From NCBI RefSeq assembly GCF_036711975.1, contig NC_091973.1:18414001-18478000 (forward strand): DNA of 64,000 nt, written 5' to 3'. Below, in pieces: positions 5,810 to 57,728 of this stretch (positions are counted from its first letter, which is position 1; each line of letters starts with the position of its first letter). The notes under the pieces are model-generated. The model was given only the letters and a program-made list of their open reading frames with translations. It made no database searches and was not told the origin of the DNA. Source of the stretch: Onthophagus taurus (lineage: Eukaryota > Arthropoda > Insecta > Coleoptera > Scarabaeidae). A program made the position numbers and the translations under genes.

Positions 5810-6034
5810 TGTCGGATACGCCATCTAGGAATTGATAAAGAAAGTAGGGGAATTCATTTAGTAGAAAGTATACATTCATTGGGTAGAAATTATTCATGCA
5901 TTTAGTAGAATAAGAAAATGAATTGTCGTTGTCACTTTTTACATTGTGATTAGATACGTTACAAGGAATGAATAAAATGTATTAACGAGTTCAATTACGA
6001 GAATTTACTTACGATTACGAGTACATACACAACA
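5810..6034 (+). repeat. 5' LTR of gypsy copy 1
   Basis: 225 bp, TGTCGGATACG...ACAACA. Compared with the 3' LTR it has GATAAAG where the other has GGTAAAG, and GTCGTTG where the other has GTCATTG. No strong TATA box is visible. Confidence 0.95.
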
Positions 6035-6051: not shown

Positions 6052-6159
6052 AAGTAGAGCGAGGATAAAGGTAGAAGAAGGAAAAAAGTAAAGAAACGAG
6101 GAAAAAAAAGAAGTATTTACGTTTACCTACGTCTACGTTACACTATATACGAAATAGAA

Positions 6160-9100
6160 ATGGAGGAAGTACTAAAACAAATTACACAAGTGCTACAAAA
6201 CTTACACCAAAACCAAGGAAATACAAATACAATGGATCTAAGAGGAATTCAACTACAGAAGTTCGATGAGGGAAACGAAACCTTTGAATCGTACGTACAA
6301 AGATTAGAAAATTACTTAGAATTACAAAACTTGACAGAAGATACATCGGAAAATGATAAACGGAAGGTTCAAATTTTGATCAGCTGTTTGGGGCCGAAAC
6401 ACTACCAAATATTATCAAACCTTACAGCACCAGACTTACCGAAGACAAAGAAATACGAGGATCTTGTAAACCTGTTACGAAACCACATTTCTCCAAAACC
6501 AAGTGAGATAGCGGAACAGCACAAATTCACGATGCGAGTACAACACGAGGGTGAGTCAATTGCTCATTTCCATTCTGAATTAAAGAAACTTACCACAAAT
6601 TGTAATTTTGTTTGCGAAAACTGTAAACAACCTACGGTGAATACGCATTTACGTTCACAATTTATACGAGGGGTAAGAGATACGGAAATCCGTGAAAGAC
6701 TACTTCAACAAAATAAGTTAACATTCGAAGAAGCGTTGAAAGTTGCCATATCCATCGAAGCTTCAAAACAAGAAAGCCGAGAAATTCAAAGACCAATAAT
6801 GGCAGTAAATTACGTCAACAAAGAAAAGAAAAAGTTTACAAATAAATCAGGAAATCAAAAGAATACAGGAAATTTAAAAGAAAAGAAATGTTTTAGATGT
6901 GGAAAAGAAAATCATATCGCTAAGGATTGCAAAGCCGAAAACCTAAAATGCAAGCATTGTGGAAGAAAGGGACATGTAGCCATCGTATGCTTCCAACAAG
7001 CGAAGAAGATAAAACAATTGAAAGAGGAGGATGAAGAAGAAGAGGAGGAAGAAAATGAAGAGAAAAATGAACTGGAAGAATATACAATAAATAGCATTAA
7101 GAAACTGGATACCACTCATTGCAATAAATACATGGTTCAATTACAAATCGAGAGCAAGAGTTGTTACATGGAACTTGATACAGGAGCAGCATTATCAATT
7201 ATGTCGCAGAAACAATTCAAAAATACTTGTCCAGGAAAGAAACTGGAAAATACAAAAATTCAATTAAAAACCTATACAGGGGAAAAAATAAAACCAATCG
7301 GAAAATGTGATGTAAAAATTACATACAAGGACCAAAATACAATTGGGACCTTATACGTTTTACAAGAAGATGTCGATACAATAATGGGTCGAGATTGGAT
7401 GAATAAAATAAAAATAAATTGGAATGAAATATACAAAATCAGTTTGGATCAAGATACGACATACAAAGAAAAATTAGAAAAATTATTGAAGAAGTATAAT
7501 AAATTATTCGAACCGACTTTGGGGAAGATACCCAATACAAAATGCAATCTGAACTTGAAAAAGGAGACAAAACCAATATTCATACGCCCAAGACCAGTGC
7601 CATACGCCTTAAAAGAGAGAATAGAAGCCGAAATTGATCGTCTCGAGAAACTGGAAATCATTGAAAAAACAACTTACTCAGAATGGGGAAGTCCCATAGT
7701 ACCCGTGGTAAAACCTAGCGGTGAAATTAGATTATGTGCCGATTACAAAGCTACGATTAATAAAAATTTAGAAGATGACAATTATCCAATACCAAGAATC
7801 GATGACTTATTCTCGAAATTAGGTGGTGGAAAATATTTTTGTACATTGGACATAAATCAAGCATATTTACATATGGAGGTTACAGAAGAAAGTTCAAAAA
7901 TTCAAACGATCACAACACATAAAGGAAATTATCTAGTAAAAAGATTAATGTTTGGAACTAAAATTGCACCAAATGTTTGGCAACGTTTTATGGACCAGGT
8001 GTTAATTGAGTTGGAAGGAGTATCTTGCTTCTTCGACGACATTGTGGTCCAGGGAGCGACTTATTCAGAATTATTACAGCGACTAGAAAATGTTTTCTCA
8101 AGATTGGAAAAGAATGATTTACATCTCAAAAGAAACAAATGCCAGTTTTTACTAAAATCAATTACGTATTTAGGACACAAAATAGACGAGAACGGACTAC
8201 ACCCATTGGAAGACAAGATAAAGGCAATAGTAAATTGTCCAAGACCAAATAATGTAGACGAGGTGAGAGTATTTTTAGGCCTCATAAACTACTACCAAAA
8301 ATTCATTCCAAATTTAGCTTCAAAATTAAATCCGATAAATAATCTTTTAAGGAAGCAATCAGAATTCATATGGTCAAAAAAGTGTGAGGAAAGTTTCAGA
8401 ACGCTAAAGGAAGAAATAACTAGTCCAAAAGTACTTATACCATATAAACCGAAACTTAAATTGGTATTAGCTACGGATGCATCTCCTACGGGATTGGGAG
8501 CAGTAATTTCACATATCTTACCAACAGGCGAAGAGAAACCAGTAGCTTTTGCGTCACGATCGCTTTCAAAAGCTGAAAGAAACTACAGCCAGATTGACAA
8601 AGAAGCGACAGCTATCGTCTGGGGATTAAAAAAATTTTGTCAATATTGCTATGGAAGGAAAATAACACTTGTGATGGACCATAAACCGCTAACAAGGATC
8701 CTCCATCCCGAAAAAATACTACCAGCTACATCGGCAATTAGATTACTACATTACGCAAGTTACATGGCAGGATTTAAATATGACATCATCTATCGAAACA
8801 CCAAAGACCACGGAAATGCAGATTTTTTATCACGATTTTCTACAACGGATGAAACCGAGATAACGAAACTGTCAGAAGAAAGCGTATTTTATATAAACCA
8901 ACTTCAAATGTTACCCGTAACCAGAGAGGAAATTAGACGAGAAACTAGAAAAGATCCAGAAATTACTAAATTGATTATATCACTTGAAAATGGAGACGAA
9001 GACCAAAATTTGACGAAATTTACATTGGAAGATGGATGCCTGTTTAACGGAATGAGAGTGGTCATACCAAAAACATTACAAAAAAGAATACTGGAAGAAT

Positions 9101-10092
9101 TGCACACAGCACATACTGGAATTGTCAAAATGAAGGCACTTGCTCGAAGTTATGTATGGTGGAAAAAAATAGATGAAGATATTGAAACTTTAACAAAGGA
9201 ATGCCGGCAATGCTGTCTTACTAAGAACAACCCAAAAGCAATCACCAAATACCATACCTGGGAATACCCAAAATCACCGTGGCAGAGAGTACATATTGAT
9301 TACGCTGGACCATTCCAGGAACATTACTTCCTGATAATAGTCGATGCTTATACAAAATATCTTGAAGTTTTCCCTACAAAATCAATGACAACGGAGATAA
9401 CAATAAAAAAACTAAGAGAAACATTCAGTAGATTTGGACTACCAATCACTTTGGTAAGTGATAATGCTACCAATTTTAAAAGCCAAGATTTCAAGGAATT
9501 TACACAAACAAATGGAATTATACATCGATTCTCCGCGCCGTACCACCCTTCAACAAACGGCCAAGCGGAGAGATACGTCCAAACGGTCAAGAAAAAACTA
9601 AAAGCAATGGCATCGGAGCCAGGGAATATCCATCTCAAATTATGCAAACTCTTAATGCAGTTTAGGAAAACACCAAGTGCAGCCACGAACCAGAGTCCGG
9701 CGGAGTTGCTGTTAAAAGGGAATTTCAGAACACGTATCGATCTGGTGAGAAGAGAAATAGGAACAGAAAACAAAAAACAAGAAAACTTAAAAATAAGAGA
9801 CTTTCAACAGGGAGACCAAGTCCTTGCGAGATTTTATAACAACCCAGAAACAAAGTGGAAGATGGGAAGAATCATAAATAGAGAGGGAAATTTGCATTAC
9901 GAAGTAGAAGTAGAGGGAGCTATACACAGAAGACATATTGATCAATTGATGAGTACTAAATTCAGAGGACCAAATGAAAAGATTCCTGAAATAATAGAAA
10001 TACCTGAAGGGGACAAAGAGGCAGATGATAGCGATAAAACCACTACACCTGAAACCATAAGAACAGAAGAAAGAGAAAAGGAACCAGAATAG
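6160..10092 (+). CDS. Gag-Pol polyprotein of gypsy copy 1 (1310 aa)
   Basis: One continuous frame encodes Gag and Pol without a frameshift. Gag (about residues 25-200) is followed by two CCHC zinc knuckles near 245-278 and an Asp/Glu-rich linker. The aspartic protease motif is LDTGAA near residue 340. RT spans about 460-640; its catalytic box reads FFDD (Asp626/627) instead of YxDD. RNase H starts near ATDAS (Asp773). Integrase has a zinc domain near 985-1025 and a core Asp1047, Asp1101 and Glu1137, exactly D-X35-E. The start is the first Met after the leader. The amber codon at 10090-10092 is followed in frame by 44 more sense codons to a TAA at 10225-10227 ending in a basic RRSTRIRKPP-like tail usual for gypsy Pol, so the annotated end is probably a nonsense mutation that removes only the tail. 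Confidence 0.93.
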   Translation: MEEVLKQITQVLQNLHQNQGNTNTMDLRGIQLQKFDEGNETFESYVQRLENYLELQNLTEDTSENDKRKVQILISCLGPKHYQILSNLTAPDLPKTKKYEDLVNLLRNHISPKPSEIAEQHKFTMRVQHEGESIAHFHSELKKLTTNCNFVCENCKQPTVNTHLRSQFIRGVRDTEIRERLLQQNKLTFEEALKVAISIEASKQESREIQRPIMAVNYVNKEKKKFTNKSGNQKNTGNLKEKKCFRCGKENHIAKDCKAENLKCKHCGRKGHVAIVCFQQAKKIKQLKEEDEEEEEEENEEKNELEEYTINSIKKLDTTHCNKYMVQLQIESKSCYMELDTGAALSIMSQKQFKNTCPGKKLENTKIQLKTYTGEKIKPIGKCDVKITYKDQNTIGTLYVLQEDVDTIMGRDWMNKIKINWNEIYKISLDQDTTYKEKLEKLLKKYNKLFEPTLGKIPNTKCNLNLKKETKPIFIRPRPVPYALKERIEAEIDRLEKLEIIEKTTYSEWGSPIVPVVKPSGEIRLCADYKATINKNLEDDNYPIPRIDDLFSKLGGGKYFCTLDINQAYLHMEVTEESSKIQTITTHKGNYLVKRLMFGTKIAPNVWQRFMDQVLIELEGVSCFFDDIVVQGATYSELLQRLENVFSRLEKNDLHLKRNKCQFLLKSITYLGHKIDENGLHPLEDKIKAIVNCPRPNNVDEVRVFLGLINYYQKFIPNLASKLNPINNLLRKQSEFIWSKKCEESFRTLKEEITSPKVLIPYKPKLKLVLATDASPTGLGAVISHILPTGEEKPVAFASRSLSKAERNYSQIDKEATAIVWGLKKFCQYCYGRKITLVMDHKPLTRILHPEKILPATSAIRLLHYASYMAGFKYDIIYRNTKDHGNADFLSRFSTTDETEITKLSEESVFYINQLQMLPVTREEIRRETRKDPEITKLIISLENGDEDQNLTKFTLEDGCLFNGMRVVIPKTLQKRILEELHTAHTGIVKMKALARSYVWWKKIDEDIETLTKECRQCCLTKNNPKAITKYHTWEYPKSPWQRVHIDYAGPFQEHYFLIIVDAYTKYLEVFPTKSMTTEITIKKLRETFSRFGLPITLVSDNATNFKSQDFKEFTQTNGIIHRFSAPYHPSTNGQAERYVQTVKKKLKAMASEPGNIHLKLCKLLMQFRKTPSAATNQSPAELLLKGNFRTRIDLVRREIGTENKKQENLKIRDFQQGDQVLARFYNNPETKWKMGRIINREGNLHYEVEVEGAIHRRHIDQLMSTKFRGPNEKIPEIIEIPEGDKEADDSDKTTTPETIRTEEREKEPE

Positions 10093-10239: not shown

Positions 10240-10464
10240 TGTCGGATACGCCATCTAGGAATTGGTAAAGAAAGTAGGGGAATTCATTTAGTAGAAAGTA
10301 TACATTCATTGGGTAGAAATTATTCATGCATTTAGTAGAATAAGAAAATGAATTGTCATTGTCACTTTTTACATTGTGATTAGATACGTTACAAGGAATG
10401 AATAAAATGTATTAACGAGTTCAATTACGAGAATTTACTTACGATTACGAGTACATACACAACA
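10240..10464 (+). repeat. 3' LTR of gypsy copy 1
   Basis: 225 bp, two substitutions from the 5' LTR, followed by the target duplication CTTAC at 10465-10469. Confidence 0.95.
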
Positions 10465-10584: not shown

Positions 10585-10861
10585 TCCAGGGGCAGTGATT
10601 TCTCCAACAAAATGGCGCGCCACCACATTATACCCTTCCTGTTGGAGTTTATTTAAACCAATTATTTCCCAATCGATGGATTGGGAGAAGAGACTGCAAT
10701 ATCACCAGATTTACACCACTGGACCAAATACTTTGGATGAACAAAAAATCAGAATCCGAAAAGTTCAGCAAATAATTCTTGATACCTTAGGGAATTGTTA
10801 AGAAGAATTTAAAAATTGTTTAGGAGCTGCCCAAGGTATGCTATTTCAACATTTAGCTGAC
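10585..10861 (+). pseudogene. IS630/mariner-like transposase, C-terminal relic
   Basis: Two frames together give the end of a DDE transposase of the IS630-Tc1-mariner group. The first reads QQNGAPPHYTLPVGVYLN, then FPNRWIGRRD and TPLD, which matches the usual DGAPPHY...FPxRWIGR...LTPLD block. The second, from about 10730, reads TLDEQKIRIRKVQQIILDTL and, after a stop, EEFKNCLGAAQGMLFQHL, the usual C-terminus ending in a GGHFEHL-like motif. The catalytic Asp of DGAPPHY is Asn here (NGAPPHY). At least one frameshift and one stop are present. The 5' portion is missing. Confidence 0.7.
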
Positions 10862-11105
10862 TTTTAATTTTTTTATTTATTCATTTTGATAAAATTTTAA
10901 TGAAATTGTATAATCCCTAATGCTAATTTATCTGGTGGTTCCTGTGATATCAAGGCTATGTCACTCTTCCTCAGCTTGAATTGTTGTTAATATATTCATA
11001 AATTCTGTGTCCTTCTAAATCTATCATTCTGATAGATAAAAAATACATTGAGTGAGGACATTTACTTCTGATTAGTTATAATAATACAATTCTATAGGTA
11101 TAAAA

Positions 11106-11272
11106 CAGTGTTGTCCACTAATTTTTGATCAAAATCGACTTTTTATATAAATGTCTTGCCAAGATCGACCGAAGGGTTTAAAGTAACCTTACTTTTTTTT
11201 TTGCTCTGAGGCCCAAATATAGATATTTCAAATTCATAATATTTTTGGCAATAGACGTTATAGTCACCACTG
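11106..11272 (+). mobile_element. hAT-like MITE, left copy of a composite
   Basis: 167 bp, starting CAGTGTTGTCCACTAA and ending GTCACCACTG, with short imperfect inverted termini of hAT type. It is flanked on the left by GTATAAAA (11098-11105) and on the right by ATTTAGAG (11273-11280), which do not match each other. The same family recurs in the same orientation at 12317-12490. Confidence 0.75.
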
Positions 11273-12316
11273 ATTTAGAGCTTATAAATAAAAAATGGTA
11301 ATAATTGGGATCAATCTTGTTATGGATTTAGTCTTTATGGCCCATTACTAAGGTTTTATGTATAAAAAGTATTTCACCATCGCTTTTAGTTTTTGAGTTA
11401 TGATTGAGTTAATTTTCGAAAATCAACAATTTTGATGTTTAATCGATTTCGAGCTTATAATTAAAAAATAGTAATAATTGGGTTCAATCTTGTTATGGAT
11501 TTAGTCTTTATGGCCCATTAGTAAGGTTTTATGTATAAAAAGTATTTCCCCATCGCCTTTAGTTTTTGAGTTATAATTGTGTTAATTTTCGAAAATCAAC
11601 AATTTTGATGTTTAATCGATTTCGAGCTTATAATTAAAAAATAGTAATAATTGGGTTCAATCTTGTTATGGATTTAGTCTTTATGGCCCATTAGTAAGGT
11701 TTGATGTATAAAAAGTATTTCCCCATCGCCTTTAGTTTTTGAGTTATAATTGAGTTAATTTTCGAAAATCAACAATTTTGATGTTTAATCGGTTTAGAGC
11801 TTATAAATAAAAAATGGTAATAATTGGGTTCAATCTTTTTATGGATCTAGTCTTTATGGTCCATTACTAAGGTTTTATGTATAAAAAATATTTCTCCGTC
11901 GCTTTTAGTTTTGAGTTATGATTGAGTTAATTTTCGAAAATCAACAATTTTAATGTTTAATCGATTTAGAGATTATAAATAAAAATGGTAATAATTGGGT
12001 TCAATCTTGTTATGGATCTAGTCTTTATCGCCCATTACTAAGGTTTTATGTATAAAAAGTTTTTCTCCATCGCTTTTAATTTTTGAGTTATGATTGAGTT
12101 AATTTTCGAAAATCAACAATTTTGATGTTTAATCGATTTAGAGCTTATAAATAAAAAATAGTAATAATTGGGTTGAATCTTGTTATGGATTTAGTCTTTA
12201 TGGCCCATTAGTAAGGTTTTATGTATAAAAAGTATTTCCCCATCACTTTTAGTTTTTGAGTTGTAATTGAGTTAATTTTCGAAAATCAACGATTTTGACG
12301 TTTAATCGATTTAGAG
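11273..12316 (+). repeat. Six tandem copies of a ~173-bp satellite
   Basis: Repeat junctions marked by the TTAGAG/TTCGAG motif fall at 11278, 11451, 11624, 11797, 11969, 12141 and 12314, giving units of 172-173 bp. Each unit contains TTATGGATTTAGTCTTTATG and TTTTCGAAAATCAAC. Units differ by scattered substitutions and single-base indels. The array is bounded exactly by the two MITE copies, and no unit is readable as protein. Confidence 0.9.
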
Positions 12317-12490
12317 CAGTAGTGTCCACTAATTTTTGATCAAAATCGACGTTTTATATGTCTTGCCAAGATCGACCGAAGGGTTTAAAGTAACCTTCCT
12401 TTTTTTTTGTTCTAAGGCCCAGATATATTTCAGATTCATGATTTTCTTGGCGATCGACTCAAAACTGCTTTGCGATCGACGTTATGACTG
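12317..12490 (+). mobile_element. hAT-like MITE, right copy of a composite
   Basis: 174 bp, starting CAGTAGTGTCCACTAA and ending GTTATGACTG. It is closely related to 11106-11272, but retains about 22 bp (around GATCGACTCAAAACTGC) missing from the left copy. Its left flank is ATTTAGAG (12309-12316) and its right flank is GTATAAAA (12491-12498), the mirror of the left copy's flanks. Confidence 0.75.
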
Positions 12491-12516
12491 GTATAAAATG
12501 TGAGATATATTTTTAT

Positions 12517-12702
12517 CTAATATATTTTTTTTTGTATTTTAGGTGAGGCCAACGCTCTAAAAGTATAAATAGTACCGATTTGTCTCAGTTGTGCACCAGT
12601 TAGTGGTGCACTGAAATTACAAACACCTTCAAGAAAGTTATTTTGATCAGTAATATAATGACACCAACTACGGTTTTCATGTGGTCTAACTTTTGAAGAC
12701 AA
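12517..12702 (-). other. Unidentified 61-codon open frame with splice-like borders
   Basis: The minus strand has an open frame containing SAPLTGAQLRQIGTIYTF. I recognise no family. The same segment on the plus strand (12542-12718) is bordered by a polypyrimidine acceptor TTTTGTATTTTAG and a donor AG-GTAATAG, but all three plus frames contain stops. It could be a relic exon, a non-coding exon or chance. Confidence 0.25.
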
Positions 12703-12743
12703 TTTCTCAGTTTAGCAGGTAATAGTTTAATTTTTTTTGTGAA

Positions 12744-13040
12744 ATTTCCATTCGAAATTCGGAATCGATTCCATTTCTGAGCATCGATTCTGATGCTTTA
12801 AAATTAAACTCAAAAAATAATTTTAAAAACTAAAATCAAGTCCAAGAATCGATAAATTATGAATTCGAGTCGGCATCTGTATCAAATATACTGTAATGGA
12901 GATCATAATCAAGTCGAAATGGAAATCATATGATTCTGATTCGAGTCAGACTCTGATCCTGACTCGATACTTAGAATCGAGTACAAGAAAATTTAGAATC
13001 AATTCTACTCCCATAGTTTTAAGAATCGAGTTTGGACTTG
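12744..13040. repeat. Degenerate GAATCGATTC / GACTCGA-rich tract
   Basis: Many short palindromic variants (GGAATCGATTCC, GAATCGA, GACTCGA, TCGAGTC) occur over about 300 bp with no fixed period. It looks like a decayed simple repeat. It carries no coding signal. Confidence 0.5.
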
Positions 13041-25471: not shown

Positions 25472-27465
25472 TTACTTCTTATGGAATTCTAAAAAGCAAT
25501 TTCGCCCAACGGAACAGCAAAGAAAAATTTTACACGCCCTACAGCACACAAACGTCAGATTCTTGTAACCAGGGTTTCTACATTTTGATCTACACTTTTG
25601 TTCCTTGTTTTTGAACTCAGGTAGGTGATTGGCTTTGGAAGATGCGAATTTTTTGTCTGGCATATATTGTGGTTTTCTGGCTTTCTTTGGGGGATTTGGT
25701 TCATTGTCGAAGTCTGCATTTGTAACGCGTCTAGTAGCTGAACTTGGATCATTTTCTGTTCCTACTTCTGCAAGGTGCACTAGAAGACGTTTTGCGACTC
25801 CAAACTTAAAATCTAAGTAATCCATGATGTCCTTTTTCTGAAAGCCTTGATGTTCGGCATCTTTTCTATACTGTAACCATCCAGCCGCCACAGCAAAATC
25901 AACAAAATGGTAAATGGCTCGTACCATCCACTTATTTGTTCTATATCTCATTGGATACTTTCCAATAACACGATCTAACAAATCTATTCCACCCATGTTA
26001 GCATTGTATGTTTTGACAATAGCAGGCTGTTTCACATCAATATATTCTGAATGTGGCTTACTCCAACGTCTGCATTTGGTTTCAGGTTGAGAATCTTGTA
26101 GTGACGAAAGTAAATGCACTGGTCTAGTATCAAACCATTTCACTGCAATAACTTTTGAATCTTCTCTAACCATCTGTTCATAAGTTCCACGTCCTGATTT
26201 TTTCATTTTATTATCAGATGTAAACACGACTTTCTTCGGAATTCTAGATTTCATAAGTGTTCCAGTTAAACCAAGAGATCTTGTTAATAAAGCATCGATC
26301 AAACCGATTGAGGTAAAATATCTGTCCGTAAAAATTACAGCTTCATGTTGTAAAGTGTCAGACAATCTTCCACCTACATGTAGTTTTTCTGGGGTTGGAA
26401 TCAAAGCAGACTCTACAGAAGTCCCTTTTCCTTCATACAGATGAAAATCTAAAGGAATACCTGACGGAGTACACATCACAAAATTTTTTAGGCCTAGGGG
26501 ATTTCGCTTATTTTTAACATACTGTCTCATATTAACTTGACCGTGAAACGGTATCATTTGTTCGTCTATTGACACGTCTATTAGTACGTCTATTGACATA
26601 CTTCTCTGGTTTTCACGACAGGCTTTTTGAATTTTGTCAAGCATAGGTCTAATTTTCCAAAACTTATCTAAAGTTCTGGTTTGTATAGACACGGCATTAT
26701 CGTCACCAATTTTCAGTCGCGATCGTAATTGAAAATAACGATTCCTAAACATGTTGTCAGCTACAATTGGTACTTTTGTTTGGCGACCCCAGTACATTCT
26801 GATCCGAGGCAAACCGTAAATACCAATCAACATTGAACAGCCAAAAAAAATGTTAATTTCATGAGCAGAAGTATCTAAAGACTTACCAGAAGTTTGTACC
26901 TCTCGCATGTTAGTGAACAACGCCACTTTCTCAAAAAAATCGGCATCTAAATATTTGCTAAAATATTCGAAAGGTTCTAAGCAAATATCGTCGCTGTTAA
27001 CTGTTGAGTGAATATTATCATTTGTCGATAGGCCTGAAGGCCGGAATCTGAATGAAGAGTCCCACTTTTTTTTGTCGTCAGGAACCAAGTTGATCAAAGG
27101 CTCATCGTCAGGCTCAGCTTCAATATCATCGATTCCAGTGTCATCATCTAGTAATTCTTCGGCGTCGTCATCTTCAATATCATTTTGAATTAAATCTTCA
27201 TCGATATCCGAATCGTCTAAGTTATTTTAGCCGCTATCTCTTCAAGCTCTTTCTGAGTGAGGTACCCTAAGTAAAGTAACTGTTATTTTTATTGTTCAAA
27301 AGAAACACAAAATCTTGATCAAGTATCGGTAAATACCCAAGGTATCTAAAGCGATACCTTAGCCAAAGGTCGTTCTCTAGGGCAGTAACGGCATGCAATG
27401 TTGACTATGATTTATATTTCTGTAAAAATATTGCCTTACTTACGTTTATTTCGATATTTATCCAT
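25472..27465 (-). pseudogene. piggyBac-type transposase (PGBD-like), one frameshift
   Basis: The main frame (27097-25472, 541 aa) covers the DDE_Tnp_1_7 domain and a C-terminal cysteine-rich finger. Numbered from the Met at 27097, the likely catalytic Asp residues are 178 (SIDEQMIPFHG), 258 (FTDRYF) and 372 (GGIDLLD). The true start is probably further upstream. A short first exon encodes MDKYRNK (27465-27444), a GTAAGT donor starts at 27443, the acceptor TTACTTAG ends at 27267, and exon 2 starts at 27266 with RYLTQKELEEIAA. That frame hits a TAG near 27235; the acidic N-terminal region (DDSDIDEDLIQNDIEDDD) continues one base out of phase. A single-base indel therefore separates the conserved N-terminus from the rest. 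A tandem duplication precedes catalytic Asp178 (SIDVLIDVSIDE). Confidence 0.85.
27267..27443 (-). other. Predicted 177-nt intron of the piggyBac-type gene
   Basis: Minus strand: donor C-GTAAGTAAGG at 27443 and acceptor TTTACTTAG ending at 27267. Splicing gives the family-typical N-terminus MDKYRNKRYLTQKEL, which supports it. Confidence 0.7.
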
Positions 27466-31705: not shown

Positions 31706-33950
31706 TTAACCTTTAACTGATGACGTGCATATTCTATAACACAGAAAAAGAAATCTGCCAAAAAATGAAATTTAAGTAAAACTGTTCTAAAAAATTCAAC
31801 CTTTTGCTTAGTCTTAGTTTTTATATTTTAATTATCTTGAACAAAAAATCTACTATATTTGAATAAAGATTACATTTCAATAAATAAAAAAATAAATAGT
31901 TATGCTTAAATAATTTATGGAAAACACAAAACCACAACACCTCAATATCCGTAAAAATAATCATTTATTCCATACAATTCTTGCATATGTTAACTCTGCA
32001 GTCATCACACATCGCAATTTTACAATACATACAACTATTCTTAGTTTTTTTGTCGTTCTTCCGGGGACAAATTCCACATCTTTTCCTTTTTCCATCCGAA
32101 TTAGCTTGAGAAGGTTGTTCACTTATTAGTTTTTTTACTATTCTCGCAATATTCAAACGCAATTCTCGAGGAAGCCTTTGATTTGTCAAGCGTCTATTTA
32201 AATGGTCTTCTACTAACTGTTGGCTAAGTGTTTGTATAAATTGCAATCTTGAAATATTGTCATAGTTTGGATAGCTTTGATACAGTACAAAAGAGTTAAC
32301 GGAAGCAATATCTAATACCGCATAAAATACGGCCATGGGCCATCGTCTGGTTCGCCTACTTGTACTGTAATTTGCATACTTTTTATCTAGTGTGTCTACA
32401 CCTCCTTTAGTTTCATTGTAAAAAGCTATTATTTCAGGTTTACCGGTAGTTTTGTCGACGCTACTGTTATTATGCATCGAAGAGACCAGAATAACTGCTT
32501 TTCCTTTTTTAGGCACGTAGGAAACGAGGGTCACATTTTTGGTAAAACCGTAGAGAGCAGTTCCTGCTGGTTTTTTACGATTTGCTAAGAACTCTTGAGG
32601 TATTTCTCGTTTGTTTTTTCTCATTGTTCCTACGTAGGTAAGTCCTCTCTTTCGTAACTCATCAACAACTTCTAAAGAGCTGAACCAGTTGTCAGCAGTT
32701 ACATTTCTGTTTGTATTTTGAATAGGAGCAATTAACTGCAACACGGATTGAGTAGGTATTGAAAACTTATGTTCTTCACTAGACAACATCTGCCCATCAC
32801 TGCCTTTTCCAGAATAGATATAACCATTATAAAAATAATTGGTTCGTGCATCAGTTAGAATTTGAACTTTGATGCCATATTTGTTAGGCTTATTAGGCAT
32901 GTATATCCTAAATTGAACATGACCCCGGAAACCAATAAGCATTTCATCAATGCATGTTAGTTCCCCAAGGGAATATTGCTGTTGACAATTGTTTACAAAT
33001 CTTTTAAAAACCCACGATATCGCTGCAGTCTATATTCTATCTTCTATATTATCAAAACGTAAGCAAGCTAAAATAACTAGTACCCTTTGTAAAGACATTA
33101 TACAACGGAATATGTCCCGTCCTGTACCATCTGTTGCAAAAAGAGGGATTGCAAATCTTCATTATTGGATTTGAAAATGGAACTGTAGTACAAGAGTCCA
33201 AAGAAAGCTCGAAGTTCTACCATATCCAAATCCTGTAATTCGGGCTTATTGGTTCTTCCGTATCTTTCTCTCATTTCTATAAGTTTTATATTTGTGTACT
33301 TTAGAATTTCGGATAATATATCGTTTGTCAGTAGACAAGTCCATACTTGTAAAGGCGTTGCTGAATTTCCAATAGCTTTTGCTTCGCCTCGCAGGCCGGG
33401 CAAATGCGACACTATGTTATGTTTTTGCGTTCGAGATCTCTGTATAAGAGGTTGTGATGACCACTTAAAGCGATTTTTTTCCGTAATAAGATTTTGCTGT
33501 TTCATTTGATACTTTCTCACCTCTACGTGCCACTTCATCATCACTTCCTTCAGAAACTTCAAATTCTGAAGCTGAGTCATGTTCGCTTTCCATATCATGT
33601 TGAGATGAATCATCCACATCACTAACATCACTCTCCGCTTCGTTAAACCATTTCATTAATGTCTCTTCATAGTTAGGATCACCATAACGAGCAAAATTAG
33701 AAGTACTAGCCATGTCCGATGTCGTAACGCAATTGGTGACGTGGTGCCAATATGACCCCAATTAAACTTTAATCTCCACTGACACAAACAAGACTGACTG
33801 TATTTCAGTAAAAACGCACAGAACCGTGCAAGTACATCTGCCTTAAAGGTAGATGGAGCTACAGTGGCGTAACTATAAAATTATGTAGTTGCCGGTAAAT
33901 TTAAAATTCGCTGGGGTCACAGGGGCACCACGTCATCAGTTAAAGGTTAA
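31706..33950. mobile_element. piggyBac-family element with TTAA sites and 18-bp inverted ends
   Basis: Left end TTAA (31706-31709) then CCTTTAACTGATGACGTG. Right end CACGTCATCAGTTAAAGG then TTAA (33947-33950), a perfect 18-bp inverted match. The interior is the broken minus-strand transposase below. Ends and target duplication fit piggyBac exactly. Confidence 0.93.
31965..33761 (-). pseudogene. piggyBac-type transposase (PGBD4-like), broken
   Basis: The minus-strand N-terminal acidic region (33761-33465, WFNEAESDVSDVDDSSQHD) is followed in another frame by LRAFFGLLYYSSIFKSNNED (33631-33098). A shifted piece CLRFDNIEDRI and a stop near 33030 come next. The long frame then opens near CIDEMLIGFRGH, the first catalytic Asp, and runs 32942-31965 through TADNWFSSLEVVDEL (second Asp), FYNETKGGVDTLDKKYANY (third Asp) and a CX2C-rich C-terminal finger (RCGICPRKN...CDDCRVNICKNC). 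Two or three frameshifts or stops disable it, though all three catalytic Asp are intact. It fills the TTAA-bounded element. Confidence 0.88.
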
Positions 33951-46024: not shown

Positions 46025-46490
46025 GGACATGATTTGGAGGCACAACTTTGCTCGTGCGTCCCTATCGGATTTGTCGATCCGGATGACCTCGCTCATCATC
46101 GCCAGTATGTTGACGAGGGGGTCGGTTGGGGGTTCAACCGCCGCCTGTTCCGCAACATTGACCGGTGATGGTGTTTCAGCCACTGCGATCGACCCGCTTT
46201 TACGAAGCCTCCTATTGCGACGCCTCCTCTGCGACCTCGATAGCTTCGGAGGGTCGTCGGTCGCCTTTTGCTTCGGCTCGTTGAGCTTAGTTTTGGGCGC
46301 CGCGACCTCTTTCCGAACTACCTTGGTAGTTGGGGCGTTCGCTTTGGGGGCAACGTTAGCGTTGCCTTTGGGCTTTTTCGCCTGACTACTTAACTAACCG
46401 CTTTCACGGATTTCGCCGCGACTACTGGAGCCTTTTTATCCCTTTTTATTTTCGGGTGTTTTGGGCACCCTTTGTAGTTGGCTGTATTGT
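46010..46490 (-). pseudogene. Jockey ORF1 (Gag-like) C-terminus
   Basis: Minus strand begins with TANYKGCPKHPKIKR, the end of a Jockey zinc knuckle, then KKAPVVAAKSVKAVS and, after a frame change, a basic tail (KVVRKEVAAPKTKL, SRSQRRRRNRRLRKS) ending near MSEMMKLL. The stop overlaps the ORF2 start. The N-terminal two thirds are absent; the truncation point coincides with the C-terminal edge of the hAT relic. Confidence 0.7.
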
Positions 46491-48010
46491 TCACTAGTAA
46501 CACTGGTAGGTGGCGAAGAGTGATATTTTAATGCAATTTTTTGCAAGATAGGGTACGGGCTGAAATCCCAATATGAGTATATATCGGCATTCCGCTGAAG
46601 TCTTGGTTCCAAAAGATAGCATTTAAGGGTTTTCTCCAGTATATCTTCTGGTGATTGCATTGTATTTTCACAATTTTCTGTTTCGATTTTTGCGTCATGA
46701 ATGTCGTGATCAGGTGTGTTGTAATGCGTTTCCCATAAACTGCCTTCCTTTCCTGGGTGACTAGTGCAGAGTTTAGGATATAAATCAAGCTCTTCGTTCG
46801 GTGTTTTTTGCTTTATGTGGTTCAAAAAGTTTCTCATATCGGTCATGGCAATATCTACATCTGCAGAAGTCAGGTATTTGGATTTAAATCTTGGGTCAAG
46901 TAACGTAGATGTTATAAGAAAAGAATTTCCTTTCGCATAATCAAATCGTTTATTTAAAAATTCATATAGTTTTCTTTTTACTTCAGTAATGTCTTTATTT
47001 TCGTTTTCGTCTTGAAGTTGTAGGTTATTGTTTAGTACAGCTAATAATGGTATAATAATCGAAATACAGGCACTGTCAGAGGATATGTCGAGTGTAGCCT
47101 CATAAAAATATTTTAGCATATTTATTAAATTTTCAATATGTTTCCAGTCAGTGCAGGAAAGTGTAGGTATACCTTCATGCTCAACGGCATAGAGATTTAT
47201 TGTTCTTTTTTGCTCTACAACTTTCTATGTCTTGCAGCAAACAATGAATCAGAAGTCCACACTGACTTTGACAATCGGTCAATTTTCTAGATGCCTGCTC
47301 GCTTCGACGAAAACTGCCTACAATTTTTCTACAGTTATGTACTAAAATTTTGTTCCGCTCATTTTCAAACAAAACATCTTTTATGATTAATTGCAGAGTA
47401 TGCGCCACAAAGCCTAGGGATTGATATTGCGTTCTCATAGCACATACCATATTGGCTGCATTATCACGTATAATTAGGAACAGCTTCTTGCTAATATTCC
47501 AGTCATTCACCATTTCAGTTATTTTTTGTTCAATATAAGCGCCGGTATGGTCCTGATCTAGTACTGTTGCGCCCAATATCACTTTCAATCTTTGTGAACC
47601 TATAATAAAATGTGCTGTAAAGCTTAATAAAGTGCAGGTTTTACTTGGATTTGACCATATATCTGTAGTGGCACTTATCCATGCACATTTATCAACCAAA
47701 TTCATGACCTTGGTCTTTACTTTGTCATACGTTTTTGGCATTACCGTTCTAAAATATTTTTCACTTTTTAAATTATATTTGTGAATAGCGCTAAAGGTTG
47801 CTAATAACTGTAAGGTAAGATTTACATTTATTTTATTGTACTTACTTGGTATAATTACTGTATAAGCCTACATCTATAGTTAATAAAATTACGATTGAAA
47901 TATCTTCTATTTCCTGTCTTCTTATTTCCATAGACTGTAGTAAATAATTCGTTGAGAGAAGTAGTAGATTCAGAAATTAATTCCTGATTGTTAGGTTGTG
48001 GCACTTCTTT
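46470..48010 (-). pseudogene. hAT transposase (ZBED-like), broken and 3'-truncated
   Basis: Minus-strand frame 47741-47181 has ISATTDIWSNPSKTCTLLSF, LFLIIRDNAANMVCAM and FVAHTLQLIIKD, the catalytic region typical of ZBED-type hAT proteins. Frame 47119-46436 continues with LLAVLNNNLQLQDE, STLLDPRFKSKYL and YWDFSPYPILQKIALKYHSS, the start of the dimerisation domain. The sequence TSVTSEQ near 46485 is where the family normally continues with an FSxAG motif, but here it abuts Jockey ORF1, so the C-terminus is lost. Text QPNNQELISESTTSLNELF near 47990-47930 may be part of the N-terminal region; no BED finger was found. Confidence 0.8.
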
Positions 48011-48673
48011 TTAAACAAACAAAAGGGCAAACAAAACACCAGACGATGTCAAGGTTACGTAAAGGTTTACTTACCTCAGCCAGCCTTTAGACAGTGGAGA
48101 CGGCGTGGATTTAAAGTAATATTCAAAGATGTTAATGGACGCCACGGACTTATATAAAACATTTACGAACGTACTTGACCACACCCTAATCAAGTCCGAA
48201 CTTAGAGTTACAGAAAGGAATGAGAACAAATAACCAACAACCACATTTGGAACTGAAGAAAGAGTATCTATATTATATGTAATCGTAGAAAAACATTCAT
48301 GTATACACATGTAAATATACGTGGGTATATAAAAAAATATGTAATGACAATTGGAGCAAAGTTCTCAAATTATAAGAATAAAGTTTATACAACTTAACCA
48401 AAATGTTGCTGTAATCGCATACAAAAAAAGAAAATATAGCACCCCCCTGTATCGTAAGTTACACAATTACGATCCTAACTTTATTTAGAATAAATGAACA
48501 AAAAAACAGTATCGCGAAAACTTTTCAGATTGGCCAATTTGAACAGTAAGGGGATATCAAAAATAAACGATAAAAAAAGAATTATAACCTCAAATGCAAT
48601 TACCCTTACAAAAATGTAAATAATAAAAAACTTTGAATTGTCAAGACAACAAAAAAAAAGTTAACAAATTACC
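48011..48673. other. Gene-free spacer left of the BEL element
   Basis: A+T-rich, no supportable gene; the 79-codon frame at 48071-48310 has no family signature. Its last bases include AATTACC, part of a palindrome with the BEL LTR. Confidence 0.45.
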
Positions 48674-54111: not shown

Positions 54112-54607
54112 CTCAAGGGAGACTTAGGAAAGTTAATATGAATGGGGATAATTAAGGTAGCCAAGGGGAAACACCATAAAGGGAAAATCAAAATGAAAAT
54201 TATAATATATTCTATTGTAAGAATATTGAGGTAAGAATTTAAATTGCAAGGGCAATAAATTCCCAGAAGAAGAAAAAAAAAAAAAAAATAATGAAATTCC
54301 AGGGGGAATGAATTCTCAAGGGAGAATGAAGCAAAACTAAAAGAAAGATATTCCAGAAATGTGCAAAGTAAGAAAAATCAAAATTATTCCAAGGGGAATA
54401 GATTCTCAAAGGAGAATTAAGAAGAAAAAAAAATTAAAAGAAAAATGTTCCAAAAAACTTGGAGGTAAAAGAAATCCAAATTATTCCAAGGGGAATAGAT
54501 TCTCAAGGGAGAATTAAGAAAAAAAATGAAAAGAAAAATATTCCAGAAAATGTGGAAGTAAAAGAAATCAAAATTATTCCAAGGGGAATAGATTCTCAAG
54601 GGACAAT
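54111..54607 (-). repeat. Array of short hairpins with a constant CCUU loop in the BEL leader
   Basis: On the RNA-sense strand, stems of 4-6 bp enclose the loop CCTT. Members (plus-strand coordinates): 54111-54122, 54243-54256, 54296-54309 (loop variant CCCT), 54312-54327, 54385-54400, 54402-54417 (loop CTTT), 54482-54497, 54499-54514, 54575-54590 and 54592-54607 (one mismatch). Three pairs sit one base apart in ~95-bp units. The first member overlaps the gag start codon. Confidence 0.75.
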
Positions 54608-54881
54608 TTAAAAACTGATAAAGAATAAAGTAGATATTCCCAAAGAAGGATTGACAACGCGCAACGTCAAAAAGGTTTTCTTTAAACAAGAGAAATATAT
54701 TGATATTAATAATTGTTTTATTATTTTCAGGTTTAAACGAAATAGTTGTTGGGTTTAATTGCTGAGATGACGATGAAAAACTCAGATTTGTAGAACGAAA
54801 AACGCGAAGAAAGGCGTGAGGAAAAATGGCGATTGACAAGAGACGGCGTTAAATTTGCCCAAAAACCGGTAATCAAAATGC

Positions 54882-56679: not shown

Positions 56680-56845
56680 TAGGTATTTGGCTACAGGTGC
56701 AACATTTAAATCGCTTTCATTTTATTTCGCTAGAGACGATGGTACTATTTTCTGTCTCCCAGATCCACTCTTCGGATTTTTCAATTTTCTTGTAAACACA
56801 GTTCGAATGTTTCGCCACTTCTCCTTACAATTGGCAGCTGGAAAA
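56680..56845. pseudogene. Duplicated gene starts: partial DDE exon (+) and partial MADF domain (-)
   Basis: At 56680-56745 plus, an acceptor TTTTTAG is followed by RYLATGATFKSLSFYF, parallel to RYLATGSTFSDLSLYF at 56924. At about 56845-56745 minus, PAANCKEKWRNIRTVF and SGSGRQK parallel the MADF core at 56669-56560. Both are truncated at 56745, where they meet back to back. Confidence 0.65.
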
Positions 56846-56921
56846 AAATTATGTTAATTTTAAATTAAATTTATTGTTTTTAATAAATTTTAATCGGTTG
56901 ATTATTATAATATTTTGTTTT

Positions 56922-57728
56922 AGGTATCTGGCAACAGGCAGTACATTTTCAGACTTATCACTATATTTTATGAGAGGGATCAGCACAATCAGTGAAATAA
57001 TTGGAACCACTACCAAGGCAATTTGGGACGTACTCCAACCAATTTATATGAAACTACGGAATGAGGATGAATGGTTAGCTATTTCTGATCGATTTTATCA
57101 ATTATGGAATGTTGGAAATTGCTTAGGAGCCTTGGATGGAAAGCATATTAGAATTCAAAAACTTCCGAATACAGCTTCATCAAATTTTAATTATAAAGGT
57201 TATCATTCTGTCGTATTAATGGCTTGTTCGGATGGAGATGGTTGCTTTACAATGATTCAAGTTGGATTCCAAGGAAGAAATAGCGACGGTATCTTTAAAA
57301 TGTCGAAAATGGGACAATGGATAAAACAGGGTGATATGTAATTTCCCACTTCCAGACAACTTCCACAAGATATAAATGGAATTAAATTCCCATTCTACTT
57401 TATTGGTGATGAAGCTTTCCCACTGCAAGTTCGTTTAATGCGACCTTTCCCAAGAAGAACTCTAGACAATAAAAAACGTATTTACAACTACCGGATCAGC
57501 AGGGCCAGGAAGACTGTAGAGTGCACGTTTGGAATGATGTGCAAAAAATTTCGTGTTCTATCAAATCCAATAATTTGTGCAGATAAAAATAAAATCAACA
57601 ATATAGTACGCAGTGTTTGTGTACTTCATAATTTTATTAGGAAAAAAGAAGGCGTACTATATGAATTTCGAGAATCAGAAAATGAAGAACCTGTTACGTT
57701 CCGAAATTTTTATGTTATGTGTGGGTGA
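56922..57728 (+). pseudogene. PIF/Harbinger DDE transposase, one nonsense codon, first exon not found
   Basis: An acceptor TTGTTTTAG ends at about 56921, and the exon reads RYLATGSTFSDLSLYF, TKAIWDVLQPIYM, NCLGALDGKHIRI with the first catalytic Asp, and MIQVGFQGRNSDG. A TAA at 57339-57341 interrupts; the same frame resumes with FYFIGDEAFPLQ (second Asp), RMRP-like LMRPFPRRTLDN and RARKTVECTFGMMCKKFRVL (catalytic Glu), then VLHNFIRKKEG and a C-terminal tail to 57728. All three catalytic residues remain. The exon upstream of the acceptor, which normally supplies the start, was not identified. Confidence 0.8.

Follow-up and report, generated by a model that had tools for sequence, protein, structure and literature searches.

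The window analysed here, a stretch of 64,000 nucleotides of the Onthophagus taurus genome (contig NC_091973.1, positions 18,414,001 to 18,478,000), carries at its positions 11098-12498 two MITEs of about 170 bp in direct orientation that bracket six 173-bp satellite units. Comparison with paralogues indicates that the block breaks a repeated host sequence (10700-12900). Read along the forward strand, the left copy of an outer target duplication, GTATAAAA (11098-11105), is followed by the left MITE (LM; 11106-11272), which runs from CAGTGTTGTCC to GTCACCACTG and which family comparison places in the T-subfamily. The satellite array, six 173-bp units plus a closing ATTTAGAG, extends over 11273-12316 by direct reading; Tandem Repeats Finder reports a period of 173, 6.1 copies and 93% matches. 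Its first 8 bp are the inner ATTTAGAG at 11273-11280, and a second inner copy at 12309-12316 stands ahead of the right MITE (RM; 12317-12490), which begins with CAGTAGTGTCC and is followed by the right copy of GTATAAAA (12491-12498). A sequence-only reading of the window had described the matching outer pair and the matching inner pair, the six satellite units between two MITEs, and ATTTAGAG as part of the satellite unit, and all of this was borne out.

The two MITEs of the window lie in the same orientation, each starting with CAGT and ending with ACTG. The inner terminal repeat of the LM is altered (GTC, as opposed to GAC at outer right ends), and the outer terminal repeat of the RM lacks 6 bp (GTTATG-ACTG, as opposed to GTTATGGACACCACTG in a sister copy, L076). 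Because of this 6-bp deletion, the window copy is probably no longer mobile.

Other elements are scattered over the window. The same 22-bp tandem repeat occurs at 5852-5910 and 10282-10340, on either side of a stretch with a 1344-aa frame (6058-10092), and these repeat-bearing ends look like the two LTRs of a retrotransposon. An open 584-aa piggyBac-type transposase frame (PF13843) lies at 25472-27226; among the matches listed, its closest relative is 95% identical over 92%, and its best named matches are beetle proteins at 52-56% identity. A second piggyBac-type fragment (PF13843) is found at 31965-33029, and a tandem repeat with a 93-bp unit in 3.4 copies at 54296-54608. At 56796-57728 there is a DDE_Tnp_4 transposase split across two frames, which we take to be PIF/Harbinger-like.

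Searching the genome (290.8 Mb, 33 contigs) with the whole block yielded 116 matches at about 40 places, the window included, among the best 40 of 441 candidates. We annotated 57 distinct loci, namely the other 39 places from the block search together with those found with the LM alone, and 47 of the 57 have a recognisable outer left end. The LM-array-RM architecture recurs in these loci across the genome, and the architecture of the window is therefore not a product of chance. Exact or near-exact patterns further identified at least 70 LM-satellite junctions and at least 78 satellite-MITE junctions on the right side, both counts including the MITE of locus L070; since the searches score the best candidates only, all such family counts are lower bounds. 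By pairing each junction with the nearest downstream RM junction on the same strand within 12 kb, we obtained 44 pairs, part of which were read through; they enclose 2.9 to 45.9 units (median 10), with whole-unit array lengths, to within 0.1, in 38 of the 44. The sequence-only reading had considered that MITE and satellite could form one standard transposon family whose full-length copies always contain six units, a case that does not fit pairs holding about 3 to 46 units. At C3:6327848-6328203 two satellite-RM junctions lie 333 bp apart, roughly one MITE plus one unit, possibly a tandem repeat of the RM and one unit.

The same MITE family also occurs in solo form. Of twelve short candidates fetched for their exact ends, five proved to be RMs and seven solos; the 8-bp flanks are identical in three of the solos (L082, L087 and L088), one base off in another three (L079, L080 and L089), and without a match in L078. 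Classed by junction pattern, 85 exact left ends comprised 30 LMs, 21 RMs, one that was both, the seven fetched solos and 26 unclassified ends, a classing that used all LM-junction rows but only those right-junction rows near left ends; at least 8 of the 26 unclassified ends are LMs in loci already fetched. When a single solo served as query, the best 40 of 322 candidates gave 42 rows, 19 of which span the whole query, including the query itself and three known RMs.

Composite copies in this family carry their own target duplications. Identical 8-bp outer flanks were seen in 18 of 22 two-ended copies, representing 17 different 8-mers, and the remaining four pairs differ by one base (two pairs), two bases and five bases. 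Flanks agreed to within one base in 20 of the 22, compared with a mean of 2.1 and a maximum of 8 over 1000 shuffled pairings; the right flank of the window was entered by hand in this test owing to its damaged terminal repeat. Three more loci (L015, L024 and L069), outside the 22 counted copies, have flanks that match by eye.

The target of the window itself could be compared with empty sites. Six fetched paralogues of the window flanks are all empty at this target, and their flanks align through the junction with a single target copy: exact GTATAAAA, present once, in four of the six, ATATAAAA in one, and a gapped version in one. The sequence-only reading had named two discriminating observations: an empty site with one target copy, in favour of the two MITEs and the units between them having moved together, and a solo MITE at the target, in favour of a satellite circle having recombined into a resident MITE. 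The former is what these six paralogues present, four of them with the exact sequence, and a solo MITE was seen in none of them. This comparison covers the target of the window only, and an empty paralogue is by itself compatible with a history in which a solo MITE came first, so that the linkage of lineages described below is the weightier test.

Elements of the hAT superfamily have short terminal inverted repeats starting with CAGTG and a target preference for a central TA, or nTnnnnAn. The termini of the present family, CAGTGKTGTCCA on the left and the reverse complement CAGTGGTGTCCA on the right, are CAGTG-type ends of this kind, and the 8-bp length of the target duplications (identical in 18/22) is likewise that of hAT elements. 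A target matrix built from 49 8-mers, 47 of them from left flanks and two from solos, comprising 46 distinct kinds, displayed TA at positions 4-5 in 46/46, T at position 2 in 40/46 and A at position 7 in 32/46 distinct sites. The structure is that of a composite element: LM and RM each have two terminal repeats and stand in direct orientation, solo copies exist, a single target duplication surrounds the outer ends, and empty sites at the one target compared have one copy of it. A foldback (Tetris-like) class was set aside, the arms being direct and the single array lying in one orientation. LTR-type elements have direct repeats, duplications of 4-6 bp and TG..CA ends, and this class does not agree with the 8-bp duplications and the CAGTG ends.

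The same matrix offers an explanation for the inner pair of 8-mers. Scored over both strands, ATTTAGAG ranks first among the 346 8-mers of the satellite unit, and since this makes it the unit's best hAT-type target, the inner ATTTAGAG pair probably records the insertion, or insertions, of the MITE into the satellite. The outer sequence GTATAAAA also occurs within the unit, at rank 4; the empty sites show that the outer copies at the window sit in repeated host sequence.

Comparison of the MITEs across loci revealed linked marker bases. Among 43 LMs, outer base 6 and an inner base form the combinations T/T in 28, G/C in 10, T/C in one and G/T in one, with three unscorable, and are thus linked in 38 of the 40 scorable copies, L042 and L055 being the two that break the linkage. 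Base 27 is G in 32/34 scorable LMs and A in 20/20 scorable parsed RMs; among five further RMs it is A in four and T in one. The LM of the window is an exception among LMs, having A, the RM state, at base 27, and at L015 a T-type LM is paired with a G-type RM start. These exceptions (the window LM, L042, L055 and L015) suggest that some exchange has occurred. Sharing a locus does not make an LM and an RM more alike: their identity is 92.2% within loci (19 loci) and 92.0% between loci (970 pairs).

A tree built with IQ-TREE recovered an RM group (21 rows; 92/84), a T-type LM group (33 rows together with L070; 89/87) and a G-type LM group (10 rows; 91/80). The solos fall outside all three groups, but the T-type and G-type LM groups do not join and the backbone is weak. 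The trees omit four short RMs of the 23 parsed, three short rows (L081, L084 and L085) among six others and the short solo L089, and in them L078 carried an RM label, being in fact a solo.

A solo-type 3' motif was present in four of the seven fetched solos (L078, L079, L080 and L089) and in 0/28 RMs. The RM-type 3' motif was found in 17/28 RMs, the segment being missing in the other 11/28, and among the solos in L087 only. A loose scan for the solo motifs gave further hits beyond the elements, in the flanking sequence of L012 and L040. On balance, as judged from these sequence comparisons, we favour the view that LM and RM are separate lineages with linked marker bases that descend from a founder composite, with some exchange between them.

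The inner right-end base of the LM is T or C in 42/42 scorable LMs, and the corresponding base at the outer right end is A in 22/23 RMs, that of the window being deleted. This altered LM inner end may be comparable to the weak inner ends of bacterial composite transposons, which it resembles, or may reflect a founder mutation alone.

Two copies depart from the common architecture. L087 (C6:19520165-19520770) is a solo MITE with an LM-type start (CAGTGTTG and G27) and the RM-type 3' segment, and has identical TTATAGAT flanks on both sides; it is likely what remains of a composite whose array was lost through recombination between LM and RM. At L070 (C8:5385088-5388251) satellite units lie on either side of one MITE, with ATTTAGAG on both sides, and no outer MITEs were recognised in the fetched locus. 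An array holding a MITE at ATTTAGAG, which the sequence-only reading had suggested looking for, thus does exist. Its MITE nests inside the T-type LM group by both marker bases and tree, which led us to reject L070 as a surviving ancestor; it looks later, and is probably the outcome of an event such as the insertion of a composite into another array at the preferred target.

The satellite units indicate partial homogenization within loci. They differ by 5.0% within loci and 6.5% between loci, and 42% of 578 units have their nearest relative in their own locus, compared with 2.5% expected. Units of the T and G subfamilies differ by 6.5% between subfamilies and by 6.7 and 6.3% within them, a tiny difference (p = 0.005). 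No signal of positional inheritance along the array was seen, first and later units being similar between loci to about the same degree; the last unit of the array is more diverged from all others. Several large arrays were read in part, their ends lying outside what was read, and arrays free of MITEs may exist.

The sister copy L076 (C8:17.967 Mb, inverted) is a composite with three units at the same target as the window. Its nearby flanks are 97% (left) and 92% (right) identical to those of the window; across 1 kb of the left flank the identity is 88%, with numerous gaps. The two LMs are 93.8% identical, as compared with a family mean of 94.3%, and the two RMs 96.2% (with gaps), as compared with 95.0%. 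The six units of the window and the three of L076 differ by 4.0-7.7%, and closer units exist at other loci. We therefore dropped the idea of a clean before-and-after pair, the LM being no closer than the family at large and closer units being found elsewhere. The pattern fits turnover after a shared insertion, and independent insertion is also compatible with it.

We also searched for a possible source of transposase. At least 150 hAT C-terminal domains are present in the genome (the best 150 of 1076 candidates), and no autonomous element sharing the family ends could be tied to the termini when these domains were compared with 100 of 194 termini. A hAT domain lies within about 4 kb of a terminus at C1:18.05 Mb and at C3:16.22 Mb, where 0.4 such cases are estimated by chance from lists compared by eye; the C1 candidate has a right end and no left end in the part read. 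The window itself contains a hAT transposase remnant at 46436-47224 (PF05699, 23.1 bits with a cut-off of 21.4). The match to the 12-bp terminus that lies closest to this remnant, at 48136, has two mismatches, and about two matches of this quality are expected per window by chance.

Taken together, we consider it highly likely that the block at 11098-12498 is one copy of a non-autonomous hAT-type composite transposon, in which MITE, array and MITE move as a unit. Weighing against this reading are the failure to tie an autonomous element to the ends among the domains compared, the four imperfect flank pairs, the exceptions to the marker linkage, the weak tree backbone and the near-equal similarity of satellite units between and within the T and G subfamilies. 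Of the two histories that the sequence-only reading had put forward, composite transposition is supported by the copies' own target duplications, the six empty paralogues and the separate, linked lineages. The other, in which satellite circles carrying one MITE recombine site by site into resident solo MITEs, would give the identical flank pattern at a single site and could draw on solo MITEs, which exist; moreover, the likely recombinant L087 suggests that LM and RM recombine, and the reciprocal product of such an exchange would be just such a circle. Integration of this kind predicts outer RM halves from the solo family, and since none was found in 28 it lacks support as a general route. This test is strong though incomplete, because the motif is present in only four of seven solos and those without it (L082, L088) would not be recognisable inside an RM. 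The linkage of LM marker bases in 38/40 scorable copies and the lack of a solo MITE at the window target in the six fetched paralogues also argue against it. On the linkage and the lack of solo-type 3' sequence we rejected circle integration as the general route of spread, and regard it as very improbable for the block, although it may have played a part in the origin of the founder.

An ordinary MITE with an internal tandem repeat, in which the satellite was born inside and the arms are duplicated ends, must also be weighed, as such elements are known from Tetris and miDNA4 in the available portions of the reports (PMC4079207, PMC12628747, PMC9659126). In the present family, however, both arms possess a full pair of terminal repeats, the inner flanks form an identical, target-like 8-bp pair, and a family of solo MITEs shares the ends. 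The likeness of satellite to MITE is no better than that of dinucleotide shuffles (344/500 shuffles align equally well for the LM and 64/500 for the RM), on which ground an origin of the satellite inside the MITE was rejected; we judge this alternative improbable. A further possibility bears on the origin step alone and can stand alongside the composite transposon explanation: the founder may have arisen by duplication, a single MITE insertion in an array having been doubled by unequal exchange or by a circle. Both MITEs occupy the same place in the unit in the same orientation, and L070 illustrates that a MITE can sit within an array with ATTTAGAG on both sides, even though that copy does not look ancestral. 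Against this, LM and RM differ at nearly fixed bases and often by a segment, differences that could be later, and ATTTAGAG as the best target in the unit would make two separate insertions easy as well. We give a duplicated founder about an even chance.

The composite transposon explanation can be phrased as a series of steps. A MITE family with hAT-like ends would have hit ATTTAGAG, so that two direct MITEs came to bracket satellite units. Transposase supplied in trans would then have paired the outer end of the LM with the outer end of the RM, and MITE, array and MITE would have moved as a single unit, with a fresh 8-bp duplication at each site, as the flanks and empty sites suggest. The number of units presumably shifts after insertion by exchange within the array, as we infer from the three and six units at the shared target and from the partial homogenization within loci. 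Recombination between LM and RM may at times remove the array so that a solo MITE remains, an outcome of which there is one likely example.

How short satellite arrays become scattered is an open question, for which transposons and extrachromosomal circles are the usual candidates. In the present case the flanks appear to record both steps, the capture at ATTTAGAG and the transposition of the entire unit, with its fresh duplication at each target, and the two hypotheses could be compared on many loci of one genome, where composite transposition fits better. Since many arrays carry their own boundary marks, their growth and loss are traceable locus by locus. We tentatively propose, as an idea somewhat short of an even chance, a eukaryotic composite built like the bacterial ones, in which a satellite captured at the best target became a mobile, satellite-dispersing family. 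If so, the altered inner ends of the LM would help to hold the composite unit together, and recombination between LM and RM would release circles and leave solo scars.

In bacterial composite transposons, Tn10 and Tn5 among them, two copies of a short element move cargo by their outer ends, and the inner ends differ. Unlike these, the present family is eukaryotic, its ends are non-coding with transposase probably acting in trans, and its cargo is a satellite. In maize, Ac/Ds elements of the hAT superfamily form macrotransposons: according to the accessible part of that report, nearby hAT ends act as a pair and carry the DNA between them, and excision leaves a footprint in the form of a modified 8-bp duplication (PMC9910405). 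Such pairing of ends is proposed here too, but with a satellite array as cargo and MITEs as ends, and the unit has become a family dispersed over the genome, with at least 70 junctions.

MITEs carrying tandem arrays have been described in frogs and other animals, and the capture of a pre-existing tandem repeat has been proposed for tandem-repeat MITEs such as miDNA4, in the sections available of the papers concerned (PMC12628747, PMC9659126). Those sections present miDNA4 of Xenopus tropicalis as a DNA element that, like the present family, is non-autonomous and contains a satellite-like array whose copy number varies; miDNA4 is a Tc1/mariner element described as one MITE, whereas in the present family the array lies between two complete MITEs and the target duplication made at capture can still be read. 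The Tetris element of Drosophila virilis, as far as the available text of its description goes (PMC4079207), is similarly non-autonomous; it has 8-9 bp duplications, DAIBAM as a related MITE, and tandem repeats that occur in long satellite-like arrays as well, and two of its alleles differ in unit number. It is a foldback element with repeats inside inverted arms, unlike the direct arms and single intervening array seen here. A Tenebrio study (PMC13192020), in its available portion, suspects that the conserved sequences flanking two satellite arrays belong to transposons. Within the literature covered, in part by titles and the beginnings of abstracts, we found no precedent for a composite in which two complete hAT MITEs enclose a satellite and move together with it. 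Internal-repeat MITEs and hAT macrotransposons are each already known, and it is their combination in this beetle that appears to be new.
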